Below are positions 37,424 to 64,000 of a stretch of DNA of 64,000 bases, one piece after another. Under the pieces are notes generated by a model, which saw only the letters and a list, made by a program, of their open reading frames with translations, had not been told where the DNA came from and searched no databases. The position numbers were made by a program, and so were the translations under genes. The stretch is from assembly GCF_900129125.1 (NCBI RefSeq), contig NZ_FQVJ01000021.1, positions 1-64,000 on the forward strand, written 5' to 3'. Numbering within the stretch: the stretch's first letter is position 1; every line of letters starts with the position of its first letter. This DNA comes from Acidocella aminolytica 101 = DSM 11237. GTDB taxonomy: Bacteria > Pseudomonadota > Alphaproteobacteria > Acetobacterales > Acetobacteraceae.

Positions 37424-37525
37424 CTTCCCCGTTAGATCTCAGTTGAAATTCACATGTCGATCAAAGGCGGTTGATGAGGTCACTAAATTTAGCAGACATG
37501 AGAAATATTCATCATTTGGTGGATT

Positions 37526-46194: not shown

Positions 46195-47078
46195 GAAATT
46201 CTCACCTTGACGAGAGGCGCATGCACGAAGCGCTGGCGCTCGAGCCAGGCGCCGAGGCTCGACATGCCGCCGTATGGATAGAAATGCGCGAAGACCTGGC
46301 CGTGGCGCTCTAGCGCGAGGCCGCTGACCAGCGCGTGCACGAGTTGGTCAGGGCCGGCATGGCTGCGCAGCTTGGTCAGGGAGAAGCCGTAGCGGGCGAG
46401 TACGGCGGCGGAGGCGCTGACGCCGCACAGGGCGGCGTAGCGCAGCAGAGTGCGCAAATTGGCGGGTCCCGGCACGCCCAGGCGGACCGGGACCAGTATG
46501 CCCCCGGCGCGCAGTTCCTCCAGCCAGTCCAGCAGCGGCGTGGCGGAGAAGCAGAATTGGGTGGCGATTTCGGCCGTGAGTCCCTGATCGGCGATGGCGG
46601 CGAGTTTGTCGCGCATGGCGCGCGCGAGGCGCGGGTCGGGGATTTTGGGGTGGCCTTCCGGGTAGCCGGAGATCACGGCGGTATGCACGCCATGGCGGCG
46701 GAGCAGGCCGGTTTGCAGCAACGCCAGCGCATCCTCGAACGGGCCCGCCGGACGCGCGCAATCGCCCGCCAGCACCAACATCCGCTCGACCTTGGCCCGC
46801 GCCGCCCAACCTTCCAGCAGGCGCTCTAACGCGCCGCAGCTGCTCAGGCGGCGCGCGGCGATGTGGGGCATAGGCGTGAAACCCAATTCGCGGATGGCGG
46901 CGGCGGCGTCGAGCCGGTCGGCATCGGACTCACTGGCCAGGTAGGGAATGGCGATGATGGTGCCGGGCGCGAAGCGGGACGCCATCGCCGCGAGGTTCGG
47001 GATATCGCGGGCCGTGGCCTCCATCGACCACCCGTCCAGACAGTTCCATTGCATCGCCGCCGTCATCTCCTCGTGCAT
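46191..47078 (-). CDS. Methylenetetrahydrofolate reductase-like protein
   Basis: About 295 residues of TIM-barrel sequence related to MetF. Features include FTPMPHIAARRLSS, LVLAGDCARPAGPFEDAL, VISGYPEGHPKIPDPRLARAM and ATQFCFSATPLLDWLEELRA, the folate/flavin-site phrases of the family. The start is uncertain: ATG 47078 is used here, but GTG 47126 (overlapping the sdaA stop) and ATG 47054 are possible. Proteins of this kind recur in sarcosine and betaine degradation operons next to purU. It could channel 5,10-methylene-THF made by sarcosine oxidase; direction and product are not shown by sequence. Confidence 0.8.
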   Translation of the reverse strand: MHEEMTAAMQWNCLDGWSMEATARDIPNLAAMASRFAPGTIIAIPYLASESDADRLDAAAAIRELGFTPMPHIAARRLSSCGALERLLEGWAARAKVERMLVLAGDCARPAGPFEDALALLQTGLLRRHGVHTAVISGYPEGHPKIPDPRLARAMRDKLAAIADQGLTAEIATQFCFSATPLLDWLEELRAGGILVPVRLGVPGPANLRTLLRYAALCGVSASAAVLARYGFSLTKLRSHAGPDQLVHALVSGLALERHGQVFAHFYPYGGMSSLGAWLERQRFVHAPLVKVRIS

Positions 47079-47119
47079 CTCGTTCAAATCCGTTTGCGGT
47101 TGCGGGCGGGCCGGAGTGC

Positions 47120-48487
47120 TCAGCACTCGATGAAATTGGCGGCGAGGCCGCCGAGCGAGGTTTCCTTGTACTTGGTGTTCATATCGGCGCCGGTCTGGCG
47201 CATGGTGGCGATCACCTGGTCAAGCGAGACGATGTGCGAGCCATCGCCGCGGCGAGCGAGCGAAGCGGCGCTGATCGCCTTGATCGCGCCGAAGGCGTTG
47301 CGCTCAATGCAAGGAATTTGCACCAGCCCGCCGACGGGGTCGCAGGTCATGCCGAGGTGGTGTTCCATGGCGATTTCGGCGGCGTTTTCGACCTGCGCGT
47401 TGGTGCAGCCGCGCGCCGCCGCCAGCCCCGCCGCCGCCATCGAGGAGGCGACGCCGACCTCGCCCTGGCAGCCGACCTCGGCGCCGGAAATCGAGGCATT
47501 GGTTTTGAATAGGCCGCCAATGGCGGTGGCGGTGAAGATGAAATTGCGCATGCCCTCATGTGAGGCACCGGGGCACATGTCGCTGTAATACCGCAGCACC
47601 GCGGGAATGACGCCGGCTGCGCCGTTAGTCGGCGCGGTGACGACGCGCCCGCCAGCGGCGTTCTCCTCGTTCACCGCCATGGCGAACAGGCTGACCCAGT
47701 CCATCTTCTCATGCGGGGCGAGGTCGTTGCGGCTGGTATCGGCCTCCAGCCGCTTACGCAACGCGCGCGCTCGGCGGGGTACTTTGAGCGCGCCGGGGAG
47801 CACGCCTTCGCCCTGCAGGCCGCGGTCGATCGCCGCCATCATGGTGGCGATCACGCGGTCGACATGCGCCAGCACCTCGGCAGCCGGGCGCAACGCCACC
47901 TCGTTCGCGCGCACGATCTCGGCGATGGTTAGCCCGGTCTCCTGGCTGATGCGCAGCAGATCGACCGCGTTGGCGAATAGATAGGGCACTTGCGTGGTGA
48001 TTGCGCCGAGCGCGGCGGGTTCATCCTCGCGGGTGACGAAGCCGCCGCCGACCGAGCACCAGCGCTCGGCGGCCACCAGGGCGCCGACGGCATTGAAAGC
48101 CTCGAAGGCCAGGGTGTTGGGGTGGCGCGGCGGCGCGGTCTCACGGTCGAACACGATGTCTTCGGCTGGGGCAAAGGCGATGTTCCTGCCCTCCAGCTTA
48201 AGCGCGCCGCACGTGGAAATCTCGGCGACCAGGGTGTCGGCGTGGTCGGGATCGACCGTCTCCGGCAACTCACCCGCCAGGCCGAGGACCACGGCTTTAT
48301 CCGTGGCGTGGCCTTTGCCTGTCCAGGCCAGGGAGCCATACAGCGTCACCCGCAGCCGGGCAACGCTGGACAACTGCCCCGCCTGCTTCATTCCGCCGGT
48401 GAAGAGATGGGCGGCGCGCATCGGCCCGACGGTATGCGATGAGGAGGGGCCGATGCCGATTTTGAACAGATCAAAGGCGCTGATCAT
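47120..48487 (-). CDS. sdaA: L-serine ammonia-lyase, single-chain iron-sulfur type
   Basis: A 455-residue L-serine dehydratase that turns serine into pyruvate and ammonia. The N-terminal beta domain has FKIGIGPSSSHTVGPMRAA, and the C-terminal alpha domain has the cluster cysteines and glycines in APTNGAAGVIPAVLRYY, GAEVGCQGEVGVASSMAAAGL and MTCDPVGGLVQIPCIERNA. It lies between soxG (3 bp) and the MetF-like gene and completes carbon flow from sarcosine through glycine and serine. Confidence 0.95.
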   Translation of the reverse strand: MISAFDLFKIGIGPSSSHTVGPMRAAHLFTGGMKQAGQLSSVARLRVTLYGSLAWTGKGHATDKAVVLGLAGELPETVDPDHADTLVAEISTCGALKLEGRNIAFAPAEDIVFDRETAPPRHPNTLAFEAFNAVGALVAAERWCSVGGGFVTREDEPAALGAITTQVPYLFANAVDLLRISQETGLTIAEIVRANEVALRPAAEVLAHVDRVIATMMAAIDRGLQGEGVLPGALKVPRRARALRKRLEADTSRNDLAPHEKMDWVSLFAMAVNEENAAGGRVVTAPTNGAAGVIPAVLRYYSDMCPGASHEGMRNFIFTATAIGGLFKTNASISGAEVGCQGEVGVASSMAAAGLAAARGCTNAQVENAAEIAMEHHLGMTCDPVGGLVQIPCIERNAFGAIKAISAASLARRGDGSHIVSLDQVIATMRQTGADMNTKYKETSLGGLAANFIEC

Positions 48488-48490
48488 CGG

Positions 48491-49057
48491 TTAATCCGCG
48501 TATTCACAGCCGACATTGGCCAACAGCGACCACACATAGGGCGCGAAGGAACGCCAGACTTCCATGTGGAAGCGTGTCAAATCCTGACGCCACAGCACGA
48601 TCTCGGCCTTGAAGAAGATGGTGCGCGTGGCCATGCCGACCGGAAAGGCGGCGGGGTCGAAATCGAGCGGGCAACCACCGTTGAGGATGTCGGTGACCGC
48701 TACGCCTTCAAGCGCGATGCCCGTCTGCCGGTGGCTGATATCGGCGAGCGAATACAGCCCGTCCGTCAGCCGTTGCGAGAGGCTGGCGGCGACGGTGGCG
48801 GCATCGGTCTCTGCGAGCAGCAGCAGCCACTCATCGGGGCCGAGGCGCAGCGCGGTGCGCTGGCCCGCACTGACCGCGCGGTTGATCGGGCCGGTGAGGT
48901 CGAGGCCCAGGGCCTCGCCCGCCGCGCCGAGCGATGCCTGCGGCACGCGCAGCGAGAAGCGGGCGCCGCCGGTAACGGGGCGGCAATGCCTGTCTCCGGC
49001 CTGGCCGCTGAGCGCAAACAGCCGCGACAGCGAGGTCGTCTCTGCAAGATTATCCAT
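48491..49057 (-). CDS. soxG: Sarcosine oxidase gamma subunit
   Basis: A 188-residue protein from the ATG at 49057, which overlaps the soxA stop by 8 bp; the frame is open further upstream within soxA but that part is not like SoxG. It shows the SoxG/YgfZ-like pattern: RLGPDEWLLL, SLADISHRQTGIALEG and a C-terminal HMEVWRSFAPYVWSLL. SoxG is the smaller folate-domain subunit of the heterotetrameric oxidase. Confidence 0.92.
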   Translation of the reverse strand: MDNLAETTSLSRLFALSGQAGDRHCRPVTGGARFSLRVPQASLGAAGEALGLDLTGPINRAVSAGQRTALRLGPDEWLLLLAETDAATVAASLSQRLTDGLYSLADISHRQTGIALEGVAVTDILNGGCPLDFDPAAFPVGMATRTIFFKAEIVLWRQDLTRFHMEVWRSFAPYVWSLLANVGCEYAD

Positions 49058-52028
49058 TGAGCCTGGTTCCTTCCGGATCATAGAAGACGGGCGCGACGAC
49101 GCTGACGCGGGCATTGCCGGTGGCGAGCGGTACGTAGAGCTGCTCGCCGGTGCGCGCCCGGCCATCGCGCAGCAGGGCCAGCGCGACGGAGCGGCCAAGC
49201 GTCTCGCTCCAATACGAGGAGGTGATATGGCCAAGCATGGTCATCGGCTTGGGCTGCGCGGGATCGGCGACGATATGCGCGCCCTCGTCGAGCACCAGCG
49301 CGGGGTCGTCGGTGAGCAGGCCAACGAGCTGCTTGCGGTTGGTCTGCTCGGCAAAGGCCTTGCGGGCCAGAGCGCGTTTGCCGACGAAGTCCGGCTTGGC
49401 CTTGCCGATCATGCCAGCATAGCCGACATCATCCGGAGTCACCGTGCCGTCGGTCTCCTGGCCGACGATGATGTAGCCCTTCTCGGCGCGCAGCACGTGC
49501 ATGGTCTCGGTGCCATAGGGCGTGATGTCATACGGCTTGCCGCTGGCCATCAGCGCCTCCCACACGGCGCGGCCGTAATCGGCGGGCACGTTGATCTCGA
49601 AGCCGAGCTCGCCGGTGAAGCTGACGCGGAACAGGCGTGCCGGGACACCGGCGATCTTGCATTCCACCATGCTCATATGCGGCAGCGCCTCGGCGGAGAT
49701 ATCCGCCCCCGTGATCAGCGGCGCTACGACCTTGCGCGCCATCGGCCCCTGCACCGCAATCACCGCGTATTGCTCGGTGGTCGAGGTCAGCCAGACATTG
49801 AGTTCGGGGAACTCGGTCTGCAGGTAATCCTCCATCATCGTCAGCACGCGCGCCGCGCCGCCGGTGGTGGTGGTGACGTGGAACCGCGTATCGGTGATGC
49901 GGCCGATGACGCCGTCATCGATGACGAAGCCGTCCTCGCGCAGCAGGATGCCGTAGCGCAGCTTGCCAGGCTGCAGCTTGGTCCAGGCGTTGATGTACAT
50001 GCGGTTGAGGAACTCCGCCGCATCCGGGCCGACGACCTCGATCTTGCCTAGGGTAGAGGCATCGAAAATGCCAACCCCGTTGCGCACGGCGCGGCATTCG
50101 CGCGCCACCGCCTTGTGCATGTCCTCGGAGCCGCGCGGGAAGTAACGCGCGCGCTTCCACAGGCTGACATCCTCGAACACCGCGCCCTGGGCCTCGGCCC
50201 AGCCATGGATCGCGGTGTGGCGCTCGGGATCGAACAGCTCTCCGCGCGCATAGCCCGCGAAATAGCCGAACGGCACCGGCGTGTAGGGCATGCGGAAGGT
50301 GGTGGTGCCGATAGCGGGGACCGGCTTGCCCAGCACCGGCGACATGATGCCGAGCGCGTTCATGTTCGACAGCTTGCCCTGATCAGTGGCCATGCCGTTG
50401 GTGGTGAAGCGCTTGACATGCTCGACCGACTTCATGCCCTCACGCATCGCCAGCGCGATATCCTTGGCGGTGACATCGTTCTGGTAGTCGAGGAAGGCGC
50501 GGACCGAACCGGGATCGCCATGATAGGGCACGGCTCCGATGAAGCCGCCTTGCGCCTCCGGCGCGTTGGTCACCTGATAGCTGAAAGCGCTGCCACCCGC
50601 GGCTTCGGCCCCCGCCTCGGCGCCCGAAGCCATCACTTCGGCCAGGGCGGCCACGCCCGCGGCGCTGCCGGCGACGCTGCACGCCTCGGCCGGCGCGCCG
50701 GGAAGGAAGGCGTCCAGCGTGGCATCGAACACCAGCTTGCCGCGGCTCTGCGAGAACAGATGCACGCTCGGGGTGAAGCCTCCAGACATCAGCAGCGTGT
50801 CGCAGCTAAGGCGCTGCCCGCTGCCGCCGGCGATCGGCTTGACGGTAGCGCCGGTGATGCGCAGGCGCCCATCCGTGGTAGCGATGGTCGAGGCCGGGTA
50901 TATGGCCAGCCCCGCCTTTTGCGCGGCGGCCACCCAGGGCCCGCCCGCATTCGGCCGCAGATCGACGATGCCGGCGATCGCGCAGCCGGCGCGTTGCAGC
51001 GCCAGCGCCGTGCGGTAGGCGCCGTCATGCGCGGTGAAGATCAGCGCCCGGCGGCCGGGCAGCACGCCGTAGCGCTCCAGGTAGAGGCGCGCAGCCTCGG
51101 CCAGCATGATGCCGGGCCGGTCATTATCCGGGAACACCAGAGGCCGCTCGATGGCGCCCGCGGCGATGACCACGCGCTTGGCGCGTACCTGCCACAGTCG
51201 GCCGCGCGGCTGCGCGTCGTTGCGCTCGCCCTCATGGTCGGTAAGCGCCTGAGCCAGGCCGATCATGTTGTGCGGGAAGTAGCCGAAGGCGGTGGTACGG
51301 GTGAGCAGCTTTACCTGCGGATAGGCGACGAACTGGGCCAGCGCGGTCTTCAGCCATTCGGCGGCGGGCAGGCCGTCGATCTGCGCATCGGGTTCGGCCA
51401 GCAGCGACCCGCCCGCCTCGGATTGCTCATCGCACAGGATCACCCGCGCGCCGGTCTTGGCGGCGGCCAGGGCGGCAGCTAGGCCGGCCGGGCCAGCGCC
51501 GACCACCAGCACGTCGCAATGCGCGAAGCGCTGGGCGTAGCGGGCGGCATCCGGGGTTTGGGGCGAGCGGCCAAGGCCGGCCATCTCGCGGATGCGCGGC
51601 TCGAAGAATTTCGTCCACGCCTTCCGCGGCCACATGAAGGTCTTGTAGTAGAACCCGGCCGGAAAGAAGCGCCAGAACACATCGTTGATCGCGCCGTAAT
51701 CGCGCTCCAGCGAAGGCGCGCGGTTCTGGCTCTCGGAGGTCAGGCCGTCATAGAGTTCGACCTGGGTGGCGCGCAGATTGGGCGTGAAATGCGCATCATC
51801 GCGCCCGACGCCGACCAGCGCATTGGGCTCCTCGCCGCCGGCGGTGAGGATGCCGCGGGGGCGGTGATATTTGAACGAGCGGCCGACGAGATGCACGCCA
51901 TTGGCGAGTAGGGCCGAGGCCAGCGTGTCACCGGGATGACCAAGGTAGAGCTTGCCGTCGAAGCTGAAAGTGAGCGTGCGGGTGCGGTCTATCCGGCCGC
52001 CTGCGGAAAGCCGATAAGATTGCGTCAT
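49050..52028 (-). CDS. soxA: Sarcosine oxidase alpha subunit
   Basis: A 992-residue subunit of heterotetrameric sarcosine oxidase, which oxidises sarcosine to glycine, passing the methyl group to THF as 5,10-methylene-THF with hydrogen peroxide formed. The N-terminal ferredoxin-like region (GRSFKYHRPRGILTAGGEEPNALV) precedes an NAD-binding Rossmann fold (DVLVVGAGPAGLAAALAAAKTGARVILCDE near residue 172). The C-terminal 380 residues are a GcvT-type THF-binding aminomethyltransferase domain (FDASTLGKIEVVGPDAAEFLNRMYIN). The start overlaps soxD by four bases. Confidence 0.96.
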   Translation of the reverse strand: MTQSYRLSAGGRIDRTRTLTFSFDGKLYLGHPGDTLASALLANGVHLVGRSFKYHRPRGILTAGGEEPNALVGVGRDDAHFTPNLRATQVELYDGLTSESQNRAPSLERDYGAINDVFWRFFPAGFYYKTFMWPRKAWTKFFEPRIREMAGLGRSPQTPDAARYAQRFAHCDVLVVGAGPAGLAAALAAAKTGARVILCDEQSEAGGSLLAEPDAQIDGLPAAEWLKTALAQFVAYPQVKLLTRTTAFGYFPHNMIGLAQALTDHEGERNDAQPRGRLWQVRAKRVVIAAGAIERPLVFPDNDRPGIMLAEAARLYLERYGVLPGRRALIFTAHDGAYRTALALQRAGCAIAGIVDLRPNAGGPWVAAAQKAGLAIYPASTIATTDGRLRITGATVKPIAGGSGQRLSCDTLLMSGGFTPSVHLFSQSRGKLVFDATLDAFLPGAPAEACSVAGSAAGVAALAEVMASGAEAGAEAAGGSAFSYQVTNAPEAQGGFIGAVPYHGDPGSVRAFLDYQNDVTAKDIALAMREGMKSVEHVKRFTTNGMATDQGKLSNMNALGIMSPVLGKPVPAIGTTTFRMPYTPVPFGYFAGYARGELFDPERHTAIHGWAEAQGAVFEDVSLWKRARYFPRGSEDMHKAVARECRAVRNGVGIFDASTLGKIEVVGPDAAEFLNRMYINAWTKLQPGKLRYGILLREDGFVIDDGVIGRITDTRFHVTTTTGGAARVLTMMEDYLQTEFPELNVWLTSTTEQYAVIAVQGPMARKVVAPLITGADISAEALPHMSMVECKIAGVPARLFRVSFTGELGFEINVPADYGRAVWEALMASGKPYDITPYGTETMHVLRAEKGYIIVGQETDGTVTPDDVGYAGMIGKAKPDFVGKRALARKAFAEQTNRKQLVGLLTDDPALVLDEGAHIVADPAQPKPMTMLGHITSSYWSETLGRSVALALLRDGRARTGEQLYVPLATGNARVSVVAPVFYDPEGTRLNG

Positions 52029-52294
52029 GGGAGCATCTCCCCGATGCGATAACTCGCCTCGATATGGTCAGTATAGGTGTTGCGCTTGACGTTGAAAAAT
52101 CGGCCACAGCCAAACGCGTGGCGCCAGCGCTCGGCATGGTCGCCGCGCGGGTTCTTCCGGAAGTAGAGGAACTCGGTCCAGGCCGCGTCGTCCTCCTTAC
52201 GGGGGTCGGCGGCGCGCACAACATGCGCCTCGCCGCCATAGGCGAACTCGATCTCGGGCCGGTTGCCGCAATAGGGGCAGGGAATCAGGAGCAT
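52025..52294 (-). CDS. soxD: Sarcosine oxidase delta subunit
   Basis: An 89-residue zinc-binding subunit. It opens with LLIPCPYCGNRPEIEF, whose CxxC pair with later residues (GCGRFFNV) forms the zinc site, and contains YFRKNPRGDHAERWRH, highly typical of SoxD. It lies between soxB (13 bp) and soxA (4-bp overlap), the usual BDAG order. Confidence 0.95.
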   Translation of the reverse strand: MLLIPCPYCGNRPEIEFAYGGEAHVVRAADPRKEDDAAWTEFLYFRKNPRGDHAERWRHAFGCGRFFNVKRNTYTDHIEASYRIGEMLP

Positions 52295-52307
52295 TGCTTG
52301 GCGTCCT

Positions 52308-53561
52308 TCAATGGGCGACCGCGGCGGCGGCGGCTTCGTCGATCAGCCGGCCAGCGCCAAAGCGCTCGAGGTTGAACGGGGCGTTGATCGGGTGCGGCTC
52401 GTCCTTGGCGATGGTGTAGGCGAGCAGATCCGCCGCGCCAGGGGTGGCCTTGAAGCCGCCCGTGCCCCAACCGCAATTTACATACAGGCCCGGCACCGGG
52501 GTCTTGCCCAGGATCGGCGAGCGGTCCGGCGTGACATCGACGATGCCGCCCCAGTTGCGCATCATCCGCATGCGCCGGAAGATCGGGAACAGCTCGCAGA
52601 TCGCCTCCAGCGTGTGCATCGGAATATGCAGCGCGCCGCGCTGGCTGTAGGAGACATAGGAATCCGTGCCCGCGCCGATCACCAGCTCACCCTTGTCGGA
52701 CTGGCTGATATAGGCGTGGATGGTGTTGGACATCACCACGCAGGGGAAGATCGGCTTCACCGGCTCCGACACCAGCGCCTGCAGCGGATAACTCTCCAAC
52801 GGCATGCGCAGCCCGGCCATCTCCATCACCAGCGAGGTACTGCCCGCGGCGCTGACTCCGATCTTGCGCGCGCCGATGCGCCCGCGCGTGGTCTGCACAC
52901 CCGTCACGCGGCCGGTGGCGTCGCGCTCAATGCCGGTGACCTCGCAATTCTGGATGATATCGACCCCCAGCGCGTCGGCGCCGCGGGCGTAACCCCAGGC
53001 CACGGCGTCGTGGCGCGCCGTGCCGGCGCGGCGCTGCAGCGCCGCGCCGGTGACGGCATGGCGCATGCCGGGCGCAATGTTCAGCGGCGGGCAGAAGGCC
53101 TTGGCCTGCTCCGGCGTCAGCCATTCATTGTCAACGCCGTTCAGGCGGTTGGCATAAACATGGCGCTTGAAGCTCTGCTCGTCGTGTACATTATGCGCCA
53201 CCATTAGCACGCCGCGCTGCGAGAACATAACGTTGTAGTTGAGGTCCTGAGACAGGCCCTCCCACATCTGCAGCGCGTGATCGTAGAGCGCGGCGCTCTC
53301 GTCGAACAGATAGTTCGAACGGATGATGGTGGTGTTGCGGCCGGTATTGCCGCCACCGATCCAGCCTTTCTCCAGCACCGCGACATTGCGGATGCCATGC
53401 TTCTGGGCCAGGTAATAGGCGGCGCCAAGGCCGTGACCACCACCACCGATGATGATCACGTCGTAAGACGATTTGGGTTCGGGATCGCGCCATTGAGGCT
53501 TCCAGCCTTTGTGGCCGTTCAGCGACTGCTTGATCAGCGCGAGAGCGGAGTAGCGTTGCAT
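52308..53561 (-). CDS. soxB: Sarcosine oxidase beta subunit
   Basis: A 417-residue flavoprotein subunit from the ATG at 53561 ([20 protein letters not shown], the typical SoxB beginning); a longer open frame upstream has no such similarity. The FAD motif is [17 protein letters not shown], followed by [20 protein letters not shown], where the covalent flavin histidine region lies further on, and a C-terminal [18 protein letters not shown]. It performs the sarcosine oxidation proper. Confidence 0.95.
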
Positions 53562-53631
53562 GAGATGATGACGCCTTAAGCTTCGGGTTGGTTTGTGTTG
53601 GTTTTGGAAATCCCGCTGCCGCGGGGATCTC

Positions 53632-54954
53632 TCAGCTGAGCGACGGATAAAGCGGGAAGGCTTCACACAGCGTGTTGACCTTCCGCCGCACCGCCGCGGT
53701 TACCGCCTCTTCGTCGGGTTTGCCGATCACGTCGAGCATTTCCACGATCAGGTCCGCCACCTGCGCGAACTCCGCCGTGCCGAAGCCGCGCGTGGTGCAG
53801 GCCGGCGTACCAAGGCGGATGCCGGAGGTGACCATCGGCTTCTCCGGATCGAACGGGATGCCGTTCTTGTTACAGATGATGCCGGCGCGGTCGAGCGCTT
53901 GCTCCGCCGCCTTACCGGTCAGCCTCTTGGGCCGCAAATCCACCAGCACGAGATGCGTGTCGGTGCCGCCCGAGACGATGCCGCAGCCATGGCCCGCCAG
54001 ACGCTCGGCCAGCACGGCGGCGTTGGCGACCACCGCCTTCGCGTAGGTCTTGAATTTGGGGCTCAGCGCCTCGCCAAAGGCCACCGCCTTGGCCGCAATC
54101 ACATGCTCCAGTGGCCCGCCCTGCAGGCCAGGAAACACCGCCGAGTTCAATTTTTTGGCGAGTGCCTCGTCATTGGTGAGGATGAGGCCGCCGCGCGGGC
54201 CGCGCAGCGTTTTGTGGGTGGTGCTGGTCACCACATGCGCGTGCGGGAACGGGCTGGGGTGCCCCCCCGCCGCCACCAGGCCAGCGATATGGGCGATATC
54301 GACCATCAGATACGCGCCAACCTCATCGGCAATCGCCCGGAAGCGGGCGAAATCAATGATGCGGGGAATCGCCGAGCCGCCGGCAATGATCAGCTGCGGC
54401 CGATGCTCGCGCGCCAGCGCCGCCACCTGGTCGTAGTCAATGGCCTGAGTCTCCGCGCTCACGCCATATTGCACCGCATGCAGCCATTTGCCGGAAAGCG
54501 TCGGCGCGGCGCCATGCGTGAGATGCCCGCCATGGGCCAGGCTCATGCCCATGATGGTGTCGCCCGGCTGCAACAGCGCGAACAGCACCGCGCCATTGGC
54601 CTGCGCCCCTGAATGCGGCTGCACGTTGGCGAATTCACAACCGAACAGTCGCTTGGCACGGTCAATCGCGAGCTGCTCGATGACATCGACATATTCGCAG
54701 CCGCCATAATAGCGCTTGCCCGGATAACCCTCGGCGTATTTGTTCGTCAGAATGCTGCCCTGCGCCTGCAACACCGCACGCGAAACGATGTTCTCACTCG
54801 CAATCAGCTCCAACCCGTGACGCTGGCGCACAAGCTCGTGCCGAAGGGCATCCGCGATCGCAGCATCGCTGCGCGCCAAATCAAGGTCAAAAAAATCTCG
54901 CACATCCTGCGATGCGATAACCTGCTCGGTCTTGATGCTTGCAACAACATCCAT
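53632..54954 (-). CDS. glyA: Serine hydroxymethyltransferase
   Basis: A 440-residue PLP enzyme interconverting glycine plus 5,10-methylene-THF with serine plus THF. The PLP lysine lies in [17 protein letters not shown], and [32 protein letters not shown] and [15 protein letters not shown] are family motifs. The start at 54954 has AAGGGG upstream. It precedes soxB by 70 bp. A copy inside a sarcosine operon serves to combine both sarcosine oxidase products into serine. Confidence 0.95.
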
Positions 54955-55038
54955 GAGCCCGCCCCTTCCCATCCGTCGTTTTCTAAACTTAAAGCAATGC
55001 TGCGCGACGAAGCCTTAATCCCACCACGCAGCAGAACA

Positions 55039-56253
55039 TTACTTCACAATCAGGTGCTCAGGACCGTAGGGGAAACCCGTGATGTTACGGTTGCCATCCT
55101 CGGTAACCACGAGAATGTCGTGCTCGCGATAACCACCAGCCCCCGGCTTATCCTCGGGGATGGTGATCATCGGCTCCATCGACACGACCATGCCCGGCTC
55201 CAGCACGGTGTCGCAATCCTCGCGCAGTTCCAGCGCGCCTTCGCGGCCGTAGTAGTGGCAAAGCACACCGAAGGAGTGGCCATAGCCGAACGAGCGGTAT
55301 TGCAGCAGCCCCTCGGAGGCGTACATCTCATTCAGTTCTTTCGCCACATCAGAGCATTTGTTGCCCGGCACCAGAAGCTCTTTGCCGCGGTCATGCACAC
55401 GGCAGTTGAAATCCCACAGCCGGATATGCTCGTCGGTCGCCGTCTCCGCGAACAGCGTGCGCTCCAGAGCCACGTAGTAGCCAGCCACCATCGGGAAGCA
55501 GTTCAGGCTGAGGATGTCGCCGCGCTTGATCTTACGGCTCGTGACCGGATTATGCGCGCCGTCGGTGTTGATGCCAGACTGGAACCAAGTCCAGGTGTCC
55601 ATCAATTCCGCATGCGGCCAGGTCTTCGCGATTTCACGCACCATCTTCGCGGTCGAGTGCAGCGCCACCTCATGCTCCGGCGCGCCAACCTTGGTCGCCT
55701 CAACGCAAGCTGCACCGCCGATATCAGCAATCTTCGCCATCTTGGTGATGTGCTCAATTTCCTCGGCCGACTTGATCATACGCAGACGCTGTGCAGGATA
55801 GGCAATGTCAACAAATTCGATGGTCGGGAACTCGACCTTGAGCAGGTTCAGCAGGTCAATGTTGACGTGGTCGAATTCAATGCCGAGACGCTTGGCGCCA
55901 CCAACCAACTGGCGAACGGCATGGAAATAATTATCCTTCTGCCAGTCCGTATAGGTGACATTACCGCCAAAGGTGCGGCGCCAGGGCTGGCCACCATCAA
56001 TGCCTGCCGAGATGCTGGTCGATTTATTGTGATCGACGAGCAGGCCATAACGGCGGCCAAAATAGCAATACGTGAAATCGGAATAATAGCAGATATTGTG
56101 ATACGACGTGAACAAAGCCGCATCGATCTTATTCGCCGCCATATGGTTGCGAATTGAGGTCAGACGCCTGGTCATCTCACCCGCCGAGAAGGTTGGCTGC
56201 ACCTTCGCGCCATTATTCGTGAAATCCTGTAAACGCTCCCGTTCCATAACCAT
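55039..56253 (-). CDS. Creatinase (creatine amidinohydrolase)
   Basis: A 404-residue member of the M24 pita-bread fold that hydrolyses creatine to sarcosine and urea without metal. Long diagnostic stretches match characterised creatinases: FTSYHNICYYSDFTYCYFGR, ISAGIDGGQPWRRT, LMDTWTWFQSGINTDGAHNP, LNCFPMVAGYYVALERTLF, FGYGHSFGVLCHYYGREG and VSMEPMITIPE. The family's catalytic His and Glu lie in these blocks. The start at 56253 could be moved two residues to the second ATG. It is followed by glyA and the sox genes, feeding sarcosine straight to the oxidase. Confidence 0.95.
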   Translation of the reverse strand: MVMERERLQDFTNNGAKVQPTFSAGEMTRRLTSIRNHMAANKIDAALFTSYHNICYYSDFTYCYFGRRYGLLVDHNKSTSISAGIDGGQPWRRTFGGNVTYTDWQKDNYFHAVRQLVGGAKRLGIEFDHVNIDLLNLLKVEFPTIEFVDIAYPAQRLRMIKSAEEIEHITKMAKIADIGGAACVEATKVGAPEHEVALHSTAKMVREIAKTWPHAELMDTWTWFQSGINTDGAHNPVTSRKIKRGDILSLNCFPMVAGYYVALERTLFAETATDEHIRLWDFNCRVHDRGKELLVPGNKCSDVAKELNEMYASEGLLQYRSFGYGHSFGVLCHYYGREGALELREDCDTVLEPGMVVSMEPMITIPEDKPGAGGYREHDILVVTEDGNRNITGFPYGPEHLIVK

Positions 56254-56321: not shown

Positions 56322-56362
56322 CGTCAAATGATAAGTTCTCATCGACAAGATGAGTTTTTCTC
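56322..56362 (-). promoter_or_regulatory. Predicted creatinase promoter with LysR-type boxes
   Basis: On the minus strand the order is box GAGAAAAACTC (56352-56362), box GAGAACTTATC (56330-56340) 22 bp on, then TTGACG (56322-56327) as a -35. The gap between proximal box and -35 is two bases, exactly as at the creatininase promoter. The -10 is not clear. The sequence CTCATC-N5-GATGAG (56338-56354) also forms a small hairpin with a T-run on the plus strand. Confidence 0.55.
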
Positions 56363-56524
56363 TTTTCAGAGCACATTAATCGCTACGACATTCAGCACTG
56401 AAATCACAAGTAAATGACGATTAAATTCTGAATATCTCGATTGGTCTTTACATTACCAGGCGATCAAACTCGTGAAATGTTTGCGTTTTAATCTTCGGAT
56501 CATTTTACCGCGATCAAATAAAGA

Positions 56525-56710: not shown

Positions 56711-58043
56711 AGGCCGCTGCAAAACCCTTGCATTTGGCTGGATTGACCGATTCTTTTCTCCTTATGGGGGGATGTGAAGCGTGGTCGTTCTGGTTCTGGT
56801 GACGAGCTTTTCAGTTTTGTGCGTCTTGAGGAGCGTGTGCCTTCGGATCATCCTCTGCGGGTAATCCGGGGCTTGCGGATGAGGTTCTGGTGGGCTTGAG
56901 CTACAGTTTTTCCAAGCTTTATGCGCATACCGGCCGGCCCTCGATCCCGCCTGAGATGCTGTAGCGGGCGACGCTTTTGCAAGCGCTGTATTCTGTGCGC
57001 TCAGAGCGGATGCTGATGGAGCAGATCAACTACAACCTGCTGTATCGCTGGTTTGTCGAGCTCTCGATGGACGCGTCCGTGTGGCACTCGACGGGTTTCA
57101 CACATAACCGCGACCGGCTGCTGCAGGCCGATGTGGCGCGGGCGTTTCTGCAGGGCTTGCTGGCGCTGAAGCAGGTCAAGCGGCTGCTCTCGTCTGAGCA
57201 TTTTTCGGTCGATGGCACGCTGATCGATGCGTGGTGCAGCATGAAGAGCTTTGTGCCCAAGAACAAAGGGGACGAGCCTCCGGCACCGCCCGCAGGGCGC
57301 AATGCAGAGCGTGATTTCCGGGGCGAGACACGTTCGAACGAGACCCATGCCTCAACCACCGGCCCGGACGCGAGGCTGTACCGCAAGAGCCAGGGCCAGC
57401 CCGCCGGGCTGTGCTATATGGGGCATGTGCTGATGGAGAACCGTAACGACCTGGTGCTGGACAGCACGCTCCCCGACGCCTGCTTTCCAGCGATATATCG
57501 TATCGCTGGAACCTTGGCAGGCTTCGCCCATGCAACCGGCACCGCCGAGCGCGACGCCACGCTGACCATGCTGGACCGCCGCACCTCACGCCAGCGCATC
57601 ACGCTGGGGGCCGATAAAGCCTATGATGTTGCCGATTTCATGGGTGAACTAAGCACCCGCAAGGTGACACCGCATATCGCCATCAACGGCACGGTCTATA
57701 AAACAGGCACACGGCGCAAGAGCGCCATCGACGGCCGCACCACGCGCCATCCAGGCTACGAGATCAGCCTGCGATGTCGAAAACGCATCAAGGAAGTCTT
57801 CGGCTGGGAAAAGGCCAGCGCCGGATTGAGCAAGTTCAAAGTCAAATCACAGAAAAAAGCCGACGCCGTATTCACCTTCTTCGCCGCTGCATTCAATCTC
57901 GTCAGACTTCCAAACTTGCTCAGCCAACAGCCCGCCTGATCCTCGGAACAGAACAAAGCCAAGCCTCAGGCTGACCTGCAACAACAAACCACAGGCTTTA
58001 AACAGAGAAAACAATGCTATCCTGTAGAGTTTTGCGGCGGCCT
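56711..58043 (+). mobile_element. Decayed IS5-superfamily element between the creatinase and permease genes
   Basis: The ends are inverted repeats: AGGCCGCTGCAAAACCC at 56711-56727, and AGGCCGCCGCAAAACTC read on the minus strand from 58043. They match at 15 of 17 positions. The element of about 1.33 kb ends 28 bp from the permease stop codon. No convincing target-site duplication was seen. The transposase inside is broken. Confidence 0.75.
56774..57939 (+). pseudogene. IS5-superfamily transposase with frameshift and nonsense mutation
   Basis: The frame begins at a GTG (56774) as MKRGRSGSGDELFSFVRLEE and HPLRVIRGL, then shifts near 56875; the other frame continues ADEVLVGLSYSFSKLYAHTGRPSIPPEM. 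A TAG follows at 56962-56964, and the frame then runs to 57939 through MLMEQINYNLLYRWFVELSM, HFSVDGTLIDAW, RSNETHASTTGPDARLYRK and LGADKAYDVADFMGEL. These are the DUF772 and DDE domains of IS5-superfamily transposases. Two lesions make it a pseudogene. Confidence 0.82.
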
Positions 58044-58070: not shown

Positions 58071-59507
58071 TCATCCACGAACCTCCGCAAATGCTCCAGC
58101 CTTATATTTAGATTTCGCCAACGCCCAATAAACGAGGGCAGCGGAAAGTATACCGGCTTCTAAGCTCAGATCGCCCCACCCCAACACATTCGTCATCAGC
58201 GGGCTTGCGTATGTTTCTGAATTCGAAAAAACGAGCGACATGATGATGCCCGCCGCGAACGCGGTAACACCGGGCCAGAATATGCCATTTCGATACCAAT
58301 AACGCCCGCTACCCCATTTCATCATATCGACCGAATTGTAATTTCCGCCACGCATGAAGTAGTCGACAATCACAATTGCCGCCCAAGGACCTGTCCAGAA
58401 GACCATGTAGTTCAGGAAATTCTGATATGCATCGAAGAAGGCGCCATAATACACCACGGCAATCCGCACACAGACCGTAAACAATGTAATGACCACGAGC
58501 GAAAACAGACGTGTCATGGGCAGGCGCAGAGCCAGAAGCCCCAGGCTGGCGGTGTAACCATTTGGAACATTCGCTGCAATGCCGCCAAAAATCACGGCAA
58601 TCAGTAGCGGCACCATGAACCAGGTTGGAATGAAATGGCCGAGTTGACTAACCGGATCATTGCCAAGATTACCACCTACCGCGATTGCGAACACCACGCC
58701 TATGACCTCACACAGGGCTAGCGAAACAAACTGCCCAAGCCCGGCAGCAAGCGCGATCTGCTTCCAACTCAAAGACGACGGGAAGTAGCGACTATAGTCG
58801 GAGGCGAAGTTTGTCCAGGCTATCGGGTAGGATACGATAATCCCGACTGCTACCAACCAGGAGCCAAACGAGCCCTGGTGTTGGTTGAAGGTTATCAGCT
58901 GCTGCATTGGCACATGCGGCGCCACAAAAAGGGCTAAGCCGCAGAACAACACTGCCAGCACGACGGCAATGAAACCTTCAGCAGCAATGATGGTGGCATG
59001 CCCATATACGGCCATGATAATTTCAGTCGCCAGTACCAAGCCGAGTGCTACCCATACAGAACTATGACCATTATAGCCGGCGAGACTGAACAATTCCTGC
59101 AACGCATCGGTGGCGACAATCGACTGGATCGAGAACCAGCTCAAGGCTGAAACGACGTTGGGGATTTTAGGCAGAACAGATCCCAACTGCCCGAAAGAAA
59201 CACGCGAAGTCATCATACCCGAAGTGCCAGTTCGCGGCCCCTGGATCGAGGTAAGGCCGACCATGACGCACCCAATCAGGTTCCCAACTATGATCGCCAT
59301 GATAGCCTGAACAAATGTTACGCCTACCGATAGAGCAAACGCCCCCGTCACGATAACGACGTAATTGACGTTGGCACCCACCCATAGCTTGAATAACTCA
59401 AACGGCGAACCGTGCCGGTCACCGATCGGTATCGGATCGATACCATGGCGTTCAATGCTACCAACTTTGTCTGCCTTAACAAAGGCGTGACCTACATCGT
59501 CACTCAT
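58071..59507 (-). CDS. NCS1-family permease, candidate creatinine/creatine transporter
   Basis: A 478-residue transporter of the cytosine/purine/allantoin permease family with about 12 helices. It shows IERHGIDPIPIGDRHGSPFELFKLWVGANVNYV at the N terminus, LTSIQGPRTGTSGMMTSRVSFG and ASDYSRYFPSSLSWKQI, which are NCS1 motifs. Members carry N-heterocycles with sodium or protons. It begins 42 bp downstream of creatininase on the same strand. Creatinine is a cyclic N-heterocycle, so it is a fitting cargo; this is inference from context. Confidence 0.88.
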   Translation of the reverse strand: MSDDVGHAFVKADKVGSIERHGIDPIPIGDRHGSPFELFKLWVGANVNYVVIVTGAFALSVGVTFVQAIMAIIVGNLIGCVMVGLTSIQGPRTGTSGMMTSRVSFGQLGSVLPKIPNVVSALSWFSIQSIVATDALQELFSLAGYNGHSSVWVALGLVLATEIIMAVYGHATIIAAEGFIAVVLAVLFCGLALFVAPHVPMQQLITFNQHQGSFGSWLVAVGIIVSYPIAWTNFASDYSRYFPSSLSWKQIALAAGLGQFVSLALCEVIGVVFAIAVGGNLGNDPVSQLGHFIPTWFMVPLLIAVIFGGIAANVPNGYTASLGLLALRLPMTRLFSLVVITLFTVCVRIAVVYYGAFFDAYQNFLNYMVFWTGPWAAIVIVDYFMRGGNYNSVDMMKWGSGRYWYRNGIFWPGVTAFAAGIIMSLVFSNSETYASPLMTNVLGWGDLSLEAGILSAALVYWALAKSKYKAGAFAEVRG

Positions 59508-59549: not shown

Positions 59550-60332
59550 TCAGGACGGCTGCCACCACGGCTCGTGCTTGAGGACATCCGAAATTCCCAC
59601 CACCGTCACGTCGAAAAGGATCTGACCTTTTTCCGCGGTCGCCGCCGCGGGCGAAGAAAGGCAACCCGATTCTGGGGTCCACTCCGGAATTGGCGGGAAC
59701 ACCGTATAGGGCGGGAATTTTGCCGGTGCCTGAATGGGCGCCAGCGACATATCGACCATTTCCGGCTTCAGATGCAGCATCAGCGATGTTTCGAGTATGC
59801 CGCCATGCTCGACATCCCATCCCGTGAAATCGTCAGGAAAAACCTTCTTGATCGTCTCCTGCGTCACGAAGTCCCAGTAGGAGATGTTGATCACCCGAAA
59901 ATCATCTATGCCGCTCCATTTGAGTTCCTGAATAGCGAGCTCAACCCCCTCGGTAGCGAATGGAAGATTTTCGTAATGACCATTGATCACAGCAATCCGG
60001 CGTACGCCATGGCGGCCAAACTCCTTCAGGACATCCTTCAGCGCGAGGCTCAGCGTGTGCCCGTCCAGACTGGTGGTGCCACACATATGATTGCCACCAC
60101 CACTCTTTTGCTGCGACTTGGCACCATATGCGAAGGCCGGCGCGACGAGAGCGCCAATATTCCTTGCCACGGCGCCAGAAATAGCAGAGGGGATGACCAC
60201 ATCCGGGTTCATCGACATATGCGGCCCGTGTTGCTCTAGCGCCCCCAACGGAATCAACACGGGCTGGCGCTCGTCAACCACGCGGCGGCGGTATTCGGTC
60301 CATGCCAATTCATCGATCATCACGTTAACCAT
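59550..60332 (-). CDS. crnA: Creatininase (creatinine amidohydrolase)
   Basis: A 260-residue metal-dependent amidohydrolase that opens creatinine to creatine. The metal ligands lie in LIPLGALEQHGPHMSMNPDVVIP (Glu, His, Asp in the first 50 residues), INGHYENLPF (His around 120, Glu after) and the conserved WDVEHGGILETSLML. Length equals that of the Pseudomonas enzyme. The related family members include mycofactocin MftE and formamide hydrolases, but the presence of creatinase and sarcosine oxidase supports creatininase. First gene of its unit, followed by the permease. Confidence 0.92.
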   Translation of the reverse strand: MVNVMIDELAWTEYRRRVVDERQPVLIPLGALEQHGPHMSMNPDVVIPSAISGAVARNIGALVAPAFAYGAKSQQKSGGGNHMCGTTSLDGHTLSLALKDVLKEFGRHGVRRIAVINGHYENLPFATEGVELAIQELKWSGIDDFRVINISYWDFVTQETIKKVFPDDFTGWDVEHGGILETSLMLHLKPEMVDMSLAPIQAPAKFPPYTVFPPIPEWTPESGCLSSPAAATAEKGQILFDVTVVGISDVLKHEPWWQPS

Positions 60333-60525
60333 AAGAACATATTCCTCGTATTGAAAACGGCAACCCGCCGTGTCGCGCGGTTTATCTTAATTGACCGGGT
60401 ATTGGCCCGGCTTTCTGCTAAGCGTTGCCATAAAAGACGCAAAACGTTGTCACGCCTGCCCCAGCACACAACGATAAGACTAAAGCGATTCGTACAGACC
60501 TGCTCTCGGAGCAGCGGGATTTGGC

Positions 60526-60714
60526 TCACGAGCACTTGTTAGCAATAGATATTTTTTTTATTTGTAGACTTTTCCATTTCCCGTTTAATCCTTGCTTGCT
60601 TAATTCTTGCACCGAAAAATCCGCCCCCCCGGCCGCAACATCCACCGGAGACGTCGGAAAACCGTCGCTAGCGTTGGCGCTGCGGATATTCCCAAGGCGT
60701 TCAAGAGCTGCCAT
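60526..60714 (-). other. 62-codon frame in the creatininase leader, possible remnant or leader ORF
   Basis: A minus-strand frame from an ATG at 60714 (MAALERLGNIRSANASDG) lies between the predicted LysR-controlled promoter and creatininase. The first 30 residues look protein-like, the rest is lysine-rich and A/T-driven. There is no ribosome binding site. It may be the remains of a gene once first in the operon, or a chance frame in a leader of about 380 bases. Confidence 0.25.
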
Positions 60715-60719
60715 ATTTA

Positions 60720-60781
60720 GTTTTATTCAACGGAAACCACTTGTCAAAGGAGAAAATCTCACCGTATAGTGAGAAAATCTC
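60720..60781 (-). promoter_or_regulatory. Creatininase-unit promoter with paired LysR-type boxes
   Basis: GAGAAAATCTC (GAGA-AAA-TCTC, a perfect dyad) occurs at 60750-60760 and 60771-60781, a 21-bp period that places both on one face of the helix. The distal box extends to TGAGATTTTCTCA, a T-N11-A LysR box. On the minus strand a consensus -35 TTGACA (60742-60747) starts two bases after the proximal box, and TAAAAC (60720-60725) lies 16 bp further on as -10. This is the usual placement for a LysR activator. The lysR gene starts at 60800 in the other direction, so it could also autoregulate here. Confidence 0.75.
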
Positions 60782-60799
60782 AAGAAAAAGGAGCCAAGG

Positions 60800-61672
60800 G
60801 TGGGGTATGCGCCGTTAAACGCTCTAAAGGTATTTGACGCGGTGTTCCGGCATGGAACTTTCTATGGCGCTGCCAAAGAGTTGAGCGTCACGCCATCAGC
60901 AATCAGTCATCAGATGCGGCATCTTGAAGAATGGCTCGGGATAGGCCTGTTCGAGCGGCGTGGAAAGCAGCTTAAGTTTGACGCTCACGCCATTTCGTTG
61001 GCCGGCGCTCTGCGCCTCGCGTTTTCTGACATTGACCGCGCTTGCCAGGAGGTGCGCCGAAAAAACAAAAACCAGCAACTAACGGTTGCGGTTATTCCCT
61101 CGGTTGCGATTTGCTGGCTGATCCCCAGGCTCCCGCTCTTTCGCGAGCTTGAGCCAAAAATCGACCTTAAAATTATTTACGCCATATTTGGCCATGAGAT
61201 TAACTTTGAGGACGTTGATATCGCAATTATTTATGCGAGAGACATGCCCGTTGTGCCGAAGATGCATGCGGTCCAAATCCTGTCCGGCGCGAGCGCTCCA
61301 GTTTGCAGCCAAAGTTTTATGGACAGGCACCCAAGATTGAACGACGCCGGCGATGTTGCCCGCTTCAATCTACTGCATGATACAGATACGGGAGGCTGGC
61401 GCGCCTGGCTTGGCGATGACTACCCGGTGAAGACCGGCGCGGCGGCGGACATCATCTTCGAGGATTTCAACCTGCTGCGAGCCGCTGTGCTTGCGGGCCA
61501 AGGGATTGCGCTTTGCGCCACGTCCATCATCCAGGACGATCTGGAGACCGGCCGCCTCGTTAAATTATCCGATCGTACGATCAACAATGAGTATAATTAT
61601 TTTGCGGTATGCCGGGAGTCGCTCGACGGCGGCCCTGTCAGTATTTTTTTCGAGTGGTTAAGGCATCTCTGA
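60800..61672 (+). CDS. LysR-family regulator (GcvA-like), 3' end replaced by an IS end
   Basis: A 290-residue LysR regulator starting at a GTG with AAGGAG six bases upstream. The helix-turn-helix (about 5-64) reads LNALKVFDAVFRHGTFYGAAKELSVTPSAISHQMRHLEEWLG; the C-terminal effector domain has the GcvA-type phrases VAVIPSVAICWLIPRLPLF, VDIAIIYARD and AAVLAGQGIALC. The last codons (after FFEW) are encoded by the left end of the IS5 remnant, which supplies LRHL and the TGA stop. Only a few native C-terminal residues are lost, so it is probably still functional. It is the evident regulator of creatinine use. Confidence 0.85.
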   Translation: MGYAPLNALKVFDAVFRHGTFYGAAKELSVTPSAISHQMRHLEEWLGIGLFERRGKQLKFDAHAISLAGALRLAFSDIDRACQEVRRKNKNQQLTVAVIPSVAICWLIPRLPLFRELEPKIDLKIIYAIFGHEINFEDVDIAIIYARDMPVVPKMHAVQILSGASAPVCSQSFMDRHPRLNDAGDVARFNLLHDTDTGGWRAWLGDDYPVKTGAAADIIFEDFNLLRAAVLAGQGIALCATSIIQDDLETGRLVKLSDRTINNEYNYFAVCRESLDGGPVSIFFEWLRHL

Positions 61673-62079: not shown

Positions 62080-62334
62080 ATGTCCGAGCTTGCCACAGTC
62101 GGTATCGACCTCGCAAAGAGTGTCTTCCAGGTTCATGGTGTCGACGAGAACGGTCGAATTCTCATGCGCCGTCAGCTTCGCCGAAGTCAGTTGCTGGCAT
62201 TTTTTGAGAAACGTCCGCGATGCCTGATCGGCATGGAGGCTTACGCAGGTGCTCATGACTGGGGGCGCAGGCTGCGGGAACTGGGGCATGACGTCCGGCT
62301 TATGCCTCCTTCTTATGTGAAGCCTTACGTGAAG
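62080..62334 (+). pseudogene. IS110-family transposase, truncated after the N-terminal domain
   Basis: The ATG at 62080 has AGAGGAG upstream. The protein shows the IS110/IS1111 DEDD-type beginning ATVGIDLAKSVFQVHGVDE, CLIGMEAYAGAHDWGRRLRELGHDVRLMPPSYVKPYVK. Family members continue with a KNDAADAEA motif, but here the sequence changes abruptly at about 62335 into the end of another element, and a chance frame stops at 62400. The leader at 61900-62079 probably belongs to the same IS. Confidence 0.8.
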
Positions 62335-62444
62335 TTATGGGCAGGTGCCCATAAGTTCACTAATCACGAGGTGCCCATAATGCGGAGGAGCGCGGCCTGA
62401 TTGGCGGATTTCCGCCGTTTTTGTCCATGTTTCCTCCGCATTAT
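62335..62444. repeat. Terminal structure of the RIT-type element
   Basis: Three motifs are nested here. TTATGGGCA and TGCCCATAA form a perfect 9-bp inverted repeat around GG (62335-62354). TGCCCATAA recurs directly at 62372-62380. ATAATGCGGAGGA (62377-62389) and TCCTCCGCATTAT (62432-62444) form a perfect 13-bp inverted repeat with a 42-bp interior, which itself holds the hairpin GGCGGA-TT-TCCGCC (62403-62416) followed by a G and five Ts. The last recombinase gene ends two bases beyond. The set looks like a recombinase core site plus a terminator. Confidence 0.65.
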
Positions 62445-62445
62445 C

Positions 62446-63450
62446 TTAGAGCGTGTCCAGCCAGGCGAGCACACTTGCATCGCGCTTCCACGATGGCTGG
62501 CCGCCGCGTGTGGTCGGAACGGCGACCTTCTCCAGTGCCTTTCGCTTTGTTTCGAGATTGGCCCGGGCATAGTGGTTGGTCGTATCGAGGCTCACATGAC
62601 CAAGCCAGCTTCGGATCACTGTAACGTCGACGCCCGCCGAGATGAGATGCACGGCGGTGGCATGTCGGAAGGCGTGGGGCGTAACATGCTTAGCCCGCAG
62701 TGATGGCACGGTTATGGCCGCTGCCTTCACGTAGGCGGCGAGCTTGAAGCGGACCCCTGAGGCGCTGAGCTGCTCCCCATAGCGGTTGACGAACAGTCTC
62801 TGGTCCGGCGCCCGTGGTTGCCGTTCAAGCAGCTTCTTCAACAACATGACTGTTTCCGGCCAGAGCGGGCAGATACGTTCCTTCCGCCTCTTGCCGATTA
62901 GGCGCACGCAGTTTGGGCTTTCGAACCGGATCGCTTCGGGGCACAGGTCGAGCGCTTCCTGTATTCGTGCGCCGCTGTTGTAGAGGAACGAGAGCAGCGC
63001 ATGATCACGCATGCCCTCAACGGTCAAACGGTCTGGCTGAACGAGGATCGCCGTCACTTCCGCCGGATCCAGATAGCTCGGTTCCGCCAGCGGAGCCCGC
63101 TTGATCGGGATATGGAGGATTTCGACGCATTGCGCGATCGACGCGGGATCCTTGGTGGCCACGAAGTGGAAGAAGCTGCGGATCGCGGCAAGCCGGCAGT
63201 TGCGCGTGCCGATCGTACCGCCACGCTCGTGTTCGGCGTGACCGAGGAACGCGGCAACCTCGCTGGCAGCCAGATCGGCCAGGGTGATTGTAGGCACCTT
63301 CTTTCCAGCACGCTGCGCGATGAACCGCAGTAACAGACGCCAGGTGTCGCGGTATGATCGAACCGTATGGATAGACGCGTTACGCTGCTCGACCAGCCAT
63401 TCGTAGAAGAACGCGCGCAGCAGGTTCGGGAACGGGTCGGCCTTGCTCAT
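62446..63450 (-). CDS. Tyrosine recombinase, third of a recombinase-in-trio (RIT) element
   Basis: A 334-residue tyrosine recombinase from the ATG at 63450, which overlaps the upstream recombinase stop by four bases. The N-terminal SAM-like domain spans about 10-110; catalytic residues are Arg in LLSFLYNSGARIQEALDL, the Lys strand in RLIGKRRKERICPLWP, HxxR in TPHAFRHATAVHLI, His/Trp in RSWLGHVSLDTT and the nucleophile Tyr in NHYARAN. Two overlapping recombinases at an element end are the mark of RIT elements, in which three different tyrosine recombinases act together. The first member would lie beyond the window. Confidence 0.85.
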   Translation of the reverse strand: MSKADPFPNLLRAFFYEWLVEQRNASIHTVRSYRDTWRLLLRFIAQRAGKKVPTITLADLAASEVAAFLGHAEHERGGTIGTRNCRLAAIRSFFHFVATKDPASIAQCVEILHIPIKRAPLAEPSYLDPAEVTAILVQPDRLTVEGMRDHALLSFLYNSGARIQEALDLCPEAIRFESPNCVRLIGKRRKERICPLWPETVMLLKKLLERQPRAPDQRLFVNRYGEQLSASGVRFKLAAYVKAAAITVPSLRAKHVTPHAFRHATAVHLISAGVDVTVIRSWLGHVSLDTTNHYARANLETKRKALEKVAVPTTRGGQPSWKRDASVLAWLDTL

Positions 63451-64000
63451 GGCTGCGCCTCCCGTCCCAGGCTGAGGCATTGTGCGCCAACTGCCCGGAA
63501 CCGCTCATTTGCGTAATGCAGCAACTCCTGCGTCACGGTGATGTAGACCAGGGTAGAGTTGATATCCCGATGGCCGAGATAGGTCGCGAGGAACGGCAGG
63601 CGATCCTGCGGATCGATGCCCGTTCGGTACCATTCGAGGATTCTATTCACGACCATTGAGTGGCGCAGGTCATGCACGCGCGGGCCAGCCTTTCCTTGCA
63701 ATGGTTTCAACTCGGCGCGGCGTATGACGTCGGAGAGCAGCCACGTGATCATTTCCGGTGTGTAATGGCCATCGCCGCGCTCGTGCCAGAACAGACCGGA
63801 ACGCGCGTCCTGTGATGCACCGGCCCGCTGCCGCGCATTGATGTAGGCCCGAAGCTCCACTAAAACGCTGTCGGGTAGCGGCAAAATGCGGGTCTTGAAG
63901 AACTTGGTCTGCCGGATGGTGATGGTACCCACCTGTAGGTCAACATCACCAAGATTGAGACGGGCAAGCTCGCCGCGCCGCAAGCCCGCGCAATAGGCGA
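63447..64000 (-). CDS. Tyrosine recombinase, second RIT gene (N terminus beyond the right edge)
   Basis: The frame is open to the window edge (AYCAGLRRGELARLNL at the start of the visible part), so only the catalytic domain is seen. Catalytic Arg lies in GLRRGELARL, HxxR in VHDLRHSMVVNRI, His in LATYLGHRDINST and Tyr in LVYITVTQEL. The final codons overlap the next recombinase (ATGA). Order, overlap and strand are those of a RIT element. Confidence 0.8.
   Translation of the reverse strand, partial: AYCAGLRRGELARLNLGDVDLQVGTITIRQTKFFKTRILPLPDSVLVELRAYINARQRAGASQDARSGLFWHERGDGHYTPEMITWLLSDVIRRAELKPLQGKAGPRVHDLRHSMVVNRILEWYRTGIDPQDRLPFLATYLGHRDINSTLVYITVTQELLHYANERFRAVGAQCLSLGREAQP

Follow-up and report, generated by a model that had tools for sequence, protein, structure and literature searches.

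Two copies of a short sequence lie between a creatininase gene and a divergent LysR-type regulator gene in Acidocella aminolytica 101 = DSM 11237, within the 64,000-nucleotide stretch analysed here (contig NZ_FQVJ01000021.1, positions 1 to 64,000; hereafter the window). Are these copies the docking sites of the neighbouring regulator, and if so, which genes would it control and in response to which compound? In Pseudomonas aeruginosa, creatine use has been associated with a regulator named CahR. The regulators that the open-licence literature searched here names for creatine/creatinine catabolism are either of other kinds or, in the case of a LysR protein, actinobacterial, and its full texts yielded no LysR operator for a creatininase or creatinase in Proteobacteria.

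Two dyads on a shared promoter region

The 11-mer GAGAAAATCTC is present without mismatch at 60750-60760 and at 60771-60781, in the gap between the two genes and adjoining TTGACA (60741-60782, plus strand: TTGTCAAAGGAGAAAATCTCACCGTATAGTGAGAAAATCTCA). Its exact repetition with a period of 21 bp and the T-N11-A form of the distal copy, both put forward in the original prediction, are borne out. The functional units are nevertheless better read as 13-bp dyads rather than 11-mers, with centres 21 bp apart; the proximal 13-mer, GGAGAAAATCTCA, lacks the outer T. In the window GAGAAAATCTC is matched with at most one mismatch three times, against 0.8 expected by chance, and all three matches fall inside this operator or a second one described below. 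Genome-wide scans were pattern-based, and the box pair at this spacing proved unique in the 3.96-Mb genome up to three mismatches. The elements of the region are as follows, with invariance judged over six Acidocella-type loci (the window and L023-L027; the named relatives are Acidocella, among them A. aromatica, L025):

60770-60782, no strand: TGAGAAAATCTCA, the distal box, a T-N11-A dyad and predicted to be the primary site (repression/recognition), centred about -64 from the predicted creatininase start
60749-60761, no strand: proximal box GGAGAAAATCTCA, predicted activation site, centred about -43, one base from the -35
60742-60747, minus strand: TTGACA, predicted -35 of the creatininase gene, without variation in the Acidocella loci and overlapping that of the LysR gene
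60719-60724, minus strand: AAAACT, predicted -10 of the creatininase gene at 17-bp spacing, the same in all six loci
60741-60746, plus strand: predicted LysR gene -35 TTGTCA, from a promoter scan
60765-60770, plus strand: TATAGT, predicted -10 of the LysR gene at 18-bp spacing, located between the two boxes and in contact with the distal one
60800-61672, plus strand: LysR-type regulator gene, 290 aa, GTG start, HTH_1 and LysR_substrate domains above Pfam cut-offs

TTGACA stands on the minus strand (60747-60742), two bases from the proximal 11-mer, as had been predicted. The -10 element proposed with it, TAAAAC, does occur 16 bp further on (60725-60720), but its first T varies among the six aligned loci; AAAACT, one base beyond, is invariant and was preferred for that reason. 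The creatininase start is accordingly predicted near 60712, which places the boxes at about -64 and -43, and since the -10 elements of both the creatininase and the creatinase promoters are weak, the start sites of these genes are estimates. The predicted creatininase leader, at about 380 nt, is unusually long, and an additional promoter closer to the gene is possible. TTGTCA-18-TATAGT is the sole promoter-like hit within 60330-60830, and the LysR gene's transcript would start near 60777. The overlap between TTGACA on the minus strand and TTGTCA on the plus strand yields two back-to-back promoters on one shared -35 region, and occupancy of the distal box should block the LysR -10, which touches it.

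That the divergent gene encodes a LysR regulator is confirmed by an N-terminal HTH_1 domain (PF00126, 63.2 bits against a cut-off of 26.6) and a C-terminal LysR_substrate domain (PF03466, 67.4 against 28). The nearest named model is GcvA (NF008352), yet its score of 233 bits is below the curated cut-off of 288 and leaves the protein outside that family; the nearest solved protein is 8y6u (E 3e-42). We call the product CreR for convenience. The layout usual for LysR regulators has a T-N11-A site near -65, lying over the promoter of the regulator gene itself, and a second site by the -35 (PMC4834489). Both are found here: the T-N11-A dyad lies near -65 of the target, its start site being predicted, and overlaps the regulator promoter, while the second site adjoins the target -35 at a distance of one base, about two helical turns off (centres 20-22 bp apart).

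It is from position that we infer activation rather than repression. The LysR-family SoxR of Arthrobacter sp. TE1826, encoded beside crnA/creA/soxA, is a negative regulator of soxA (PMC4941409), and the proximal box does abut the -35, so CreR might bind these sites mainly to repress the catabolic genes until an inducer lifts the repression. We regard this as unlikely: both boxes occupy positions typical of an activator, upstream of the -35 at about -64 and -43, and leave the -10/+1 of the catabolic promoters free. The -10 elements of those promoters are also weak, a feature to be expected where activation is needed.

A second operator within the creatinine/creatine gene cluster

From the creatininase gene onwards, a series of genes on the same strand would together make up a route from creatinine to pyruvate and formate:

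59550-60332, minus strand: creatininase gene, 260 aa; 333 bits with TIGR04448 against a curated cut-off of 235, solved creatininases at E 2e-88
58071-59507, minus strand: NCS1-type permease gene, presumed from its position to serve creatinine/creatine uptake
56351-56363, minus strand: distal box AGAGAAAAACTCA of the second operator, conserved in L023, L025, L026 and L027
56329-56341, minus strand: proximal box TGAGAACTTATCA of the second operator, conserved in the same four loci
56322-56327, minus strand: predicted creatinase -35 TTGACG, one base past the proximal box, with TTTGAC kept in five of five loci
55039-56253, minus strand: creatinase gene, 404 aa; Creatinase_N and Peptidase_M24 domains, solved creatine amidinohydrolases 7yto and 1chm matched over residues 13-403 (E 1e-179 and 2e-171)
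45343-54972, minus strand: downstream genes for serine hydroxymethyltransferase, sarcosine oxidase beta/alpha/gamma, serine ammonia-lyase, the 46191-47126 product and formyltetrahydrofolate deformylase

The 46191-47126 product (311 aa), encoded between serine ammonia-lyase and formyltetrahydrofolate deformylase, had no NCBIfam match at the threshold used.

The second operator, which the original prediction had missed, reads AGAGAAAAACTCA-N9-TGAGAACTTATCA-T-TTGACG on the minus strand from 56363 to 56322 and repeats the design of two boxes and a -35 found at the creatininase gene; it is seen in five loci. Since the neighbouring gene on the upstream side has the same orientation, the TTTGAC of this operator is assigned to creatinase. 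When the window was scanned with a matrix built from the relatives L025-L027 only, the window itself being left out, the two operators ranked first with 33.6 and 31.4 bits, against 17.8 for the next hit and a maximum of 16.6 in 60 random windows. The next best composite in the window, at 37499-37532, was rejected as a further operator: it lies where two convergent genes end, its one good dyad copy (TGAGAAATATTCA) is paired with a poor one, and it is probably a chance occurrence.

Two observations concern mobile elements. A gene for an IS5-family transposase (56977-57939) is inserted between the permease and creatinase genes, and the stretch extracted for this gap measures 1850 bp in the window against 260-512 bp, without IS5, in L023, L025, L026 and L027. 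Because the insertion separates the permease gene from the second operator, creatinase may keep its own control. Just past lysR, at 62080-63998, a transposase-like fragment and two recombinase-like reading frames were recognised by inspection, which suggests that a mobile-element boundary adjoins the cluster.

Conservation of the operator and its partners

Among the six Acidocella-type loci, the gap between lysR and the creatininase gene varies from 255 to 669 bp, and in the diverged species the only block shared within it is the -10/-35 region with the two boxes adjoining lysR. In a -35-anchored alignment of four diverged loci, most box and -35 columns are shared, and only 4 of the next 120 leader positions are invariant. 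A search of 195 related genomes for the operator half-pattern with zero mismatch recovered it only in the six that possess a close creatininase orthologue (85-100%), one of which has an extra occurrence beside a LysR paralogue (61% identical). A match in G003, inside a glutamine-synthetase-like gene, was dismissed as chance. In Acidocella sp. KAb 2-4 (L028:4600-5900), the LysR paralogue of 61% identity is accompanied by a similar operator; on its other side there is only a short match to the start of the NCS1 permease, followed by ring-hydroxylating-dioxygenase-like genes. Duplication and subsequent loss of the original target may explain this paralogue.

The pattern extends to two other alphaproteobacterial families, where nine of the ten creatinase loci examined have a divergent LysR gene. 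These LysR homologues are 43-46% identical to CreR, and the creatinases beside those of 45-46% identity are about 83% identical to that of the window. All nine lysR-creatinase pairs carry the two-box block in their 110-142 bp gap, seven of them with an exact TTGTCAAA directly ahead of the boxes, and one box of L100, TGAGAAAATCTCA, matches that of the window exactly. Scored with the Acidocella-trained matrix, seven of the nine blocks had scores that no more than 1 shuffle in 200 attained, against 3 for L105 and 9 for L107. The boxes of L070, L105 and L107 are degenerate but stand at the expected place; they score 4.0-8.8, and for L070 a single shuffle out of 200 did as well. The claim of identical boxes holds for the window, where both 11-mers are exact, whereas distant relatives keep the dyad pattern and the spacing without exact identity. 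At L103, where the creatinase gene is without that LysR within the flank, the block is absent (score -9.2), and the operator scores at 28 creatinase homologues of 61-67% identity were 9.6 or lower, with a median of -6.4. Next to the lysR-creatinase pair of L067 (5881-9226) we found ABC-transporter permease and binding-protein genes and no NCS1 permease gene; these ABC-transporter genes are a possible creatine uptake system.

Conservation bears on two further explanations. A scan placed a stem resembling a terminator at 60757-60774 of the minus strand, and the repeat might be non-functional or only an RNA hairpin. We find this hardly credible, given that such a stem is a consequence of two side-by-side dyads and that conservation, at two promoters and again in other families, extends to the dyads, their spacing and the neighbouring -35. 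Alternatively, the dyads could belong to another regulator, for instance an iron regulator of the Fur/Irr kind or a nitrogen regulator, the adjacency of the LysR gene being fortuitous. In favour of this, AmtR controls creatinine/creatine genes in Corynebacterium glutamicum (PMC8864220), and the sole other close pair in the genome (G000 C51:43829-43863, equivalent to L062:3830-3864) has an iron-type look, consisting of two similar dyads that, by inspection, precede genes resembling those for bacterioferritin and its ferredoxin. We attribute that pair to another regulator, probably an iron regulator, and rejected it as a further LysR operator. For the boxes of the window the same attribution is very improbable: across families the block tracks the LysR gene beside creatininase or creatinase, it is absent at creatinases without this LysR, and the 13-bp unit with its 5-bp core is in keeping with LysR sites.

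What these loci show directly is the pair of boxes, with its spacing and conservation, and its association both with the LysR gene and with genes of creatine use. The proposal of LysR activator sites, made from phasing, dyad form and position, is upheld by a block conserved in six Acidocella-type loci, repeated before creatinase and kept at nine lysR-creatinase pairs. On sequence grounds it is very probable that the LysR regulator encoded next door docks at these boxes.

Proposed regulation and comparison with known systems

The fuller reading, namely that the two boxes are half-operators of the divergent GcvA-like LysR protein, that the second operator controls creatinase and that activation occurs with an inducer, appears likely to us on the sequence evidence. 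In outline, a CreR tetramer would sit on the high-affinity distal dyad (60770-60782), overlapping the lysR -10 and start, and thereby repress its own gene. Inducer would bring CreR onto the proximal dyad (60749-60761), a single base away from the creatininase -35, and CreR would there recruit RNA polymerase, so that creatininase and the NCS1 permease would be expressed. The second two-box operator (56322-56363) would place a separate creatinase promoter under CreR. The mechanism itself would be a textbook one.

As to the inducer, the operator had been presented as a site for creatinine catabolism. It does adjoin the creatininase gene, but creatinase is the more widely shared target, and no creatininase match was found in two 10-kb regions examined from the other families. 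For these reasons the likelier inducer is creatine, or else sarcosine, glycine or another product, rather than creatinine, and the notion of creatinine as sole inducer is weakened by an operator that accompanies creatinase in two other families. We lean towards an undescribed LysR regulon for creatine use, with a code of its own (TTGTCAAA plus two TGAG-n5-CTCA dyads), which three or more families of Alphaproteobacteria would share and whose signal would be creatine or a downstream product, not creatinine, the operator in Acidocella being placed before creatininase as well. For creatine/creatinine catabolism in Alphaproteobacteria, these results put forward a defined regulator together with its operator code and its targets. 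Because the operator is short, conserved and located at a strongly predicted promoter, it could also serve as a creatine/creatinine sensor once the inducer is known.

Several described systems resemble parts of this arrangement. AmtR controls the same catabolic step (PMC8864220), but it is a TetR-family global nitrogen repressor, unlike the LysR protein of the window. Arthrobacter SoxR, compared here by its published description, is likewise a LysR-type regulator within a creatinine-to-glycine cluster (PMC4941409); it is, however, an actinobacterial negative regulator associated with a monomeric sarcosine oxidase, whereas the window has a divergent, activator-type layout and genes for a heteromeric sarcosine oxidase. 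ThnR, which represents the conventional LysR layout, shares the T-N11-A primary site near -65 over the regulator's divergent promoter and the secondary site by the -35 (PMC4834489), and differs in pathway and sequence. The closest parallel in design is E. coli gcvA-gcvB, where the regulator represses its own gene and activates the partner by way of two inverted repeats with centres at -65 and -43 (PMC5002191). Here too, two inverted repeats about 21-22 bp apart lie at about -65/-43 and overlap divergent promoters, and self-repression with partner activation is predicted. The site, on the other hand, is TGAG-n5-CTCA and not the ATTAG-n5-CTAAT of the GcvA regulon, which sets the operator outside that regulon, and the targets are creatininase, the permease and creatinase.
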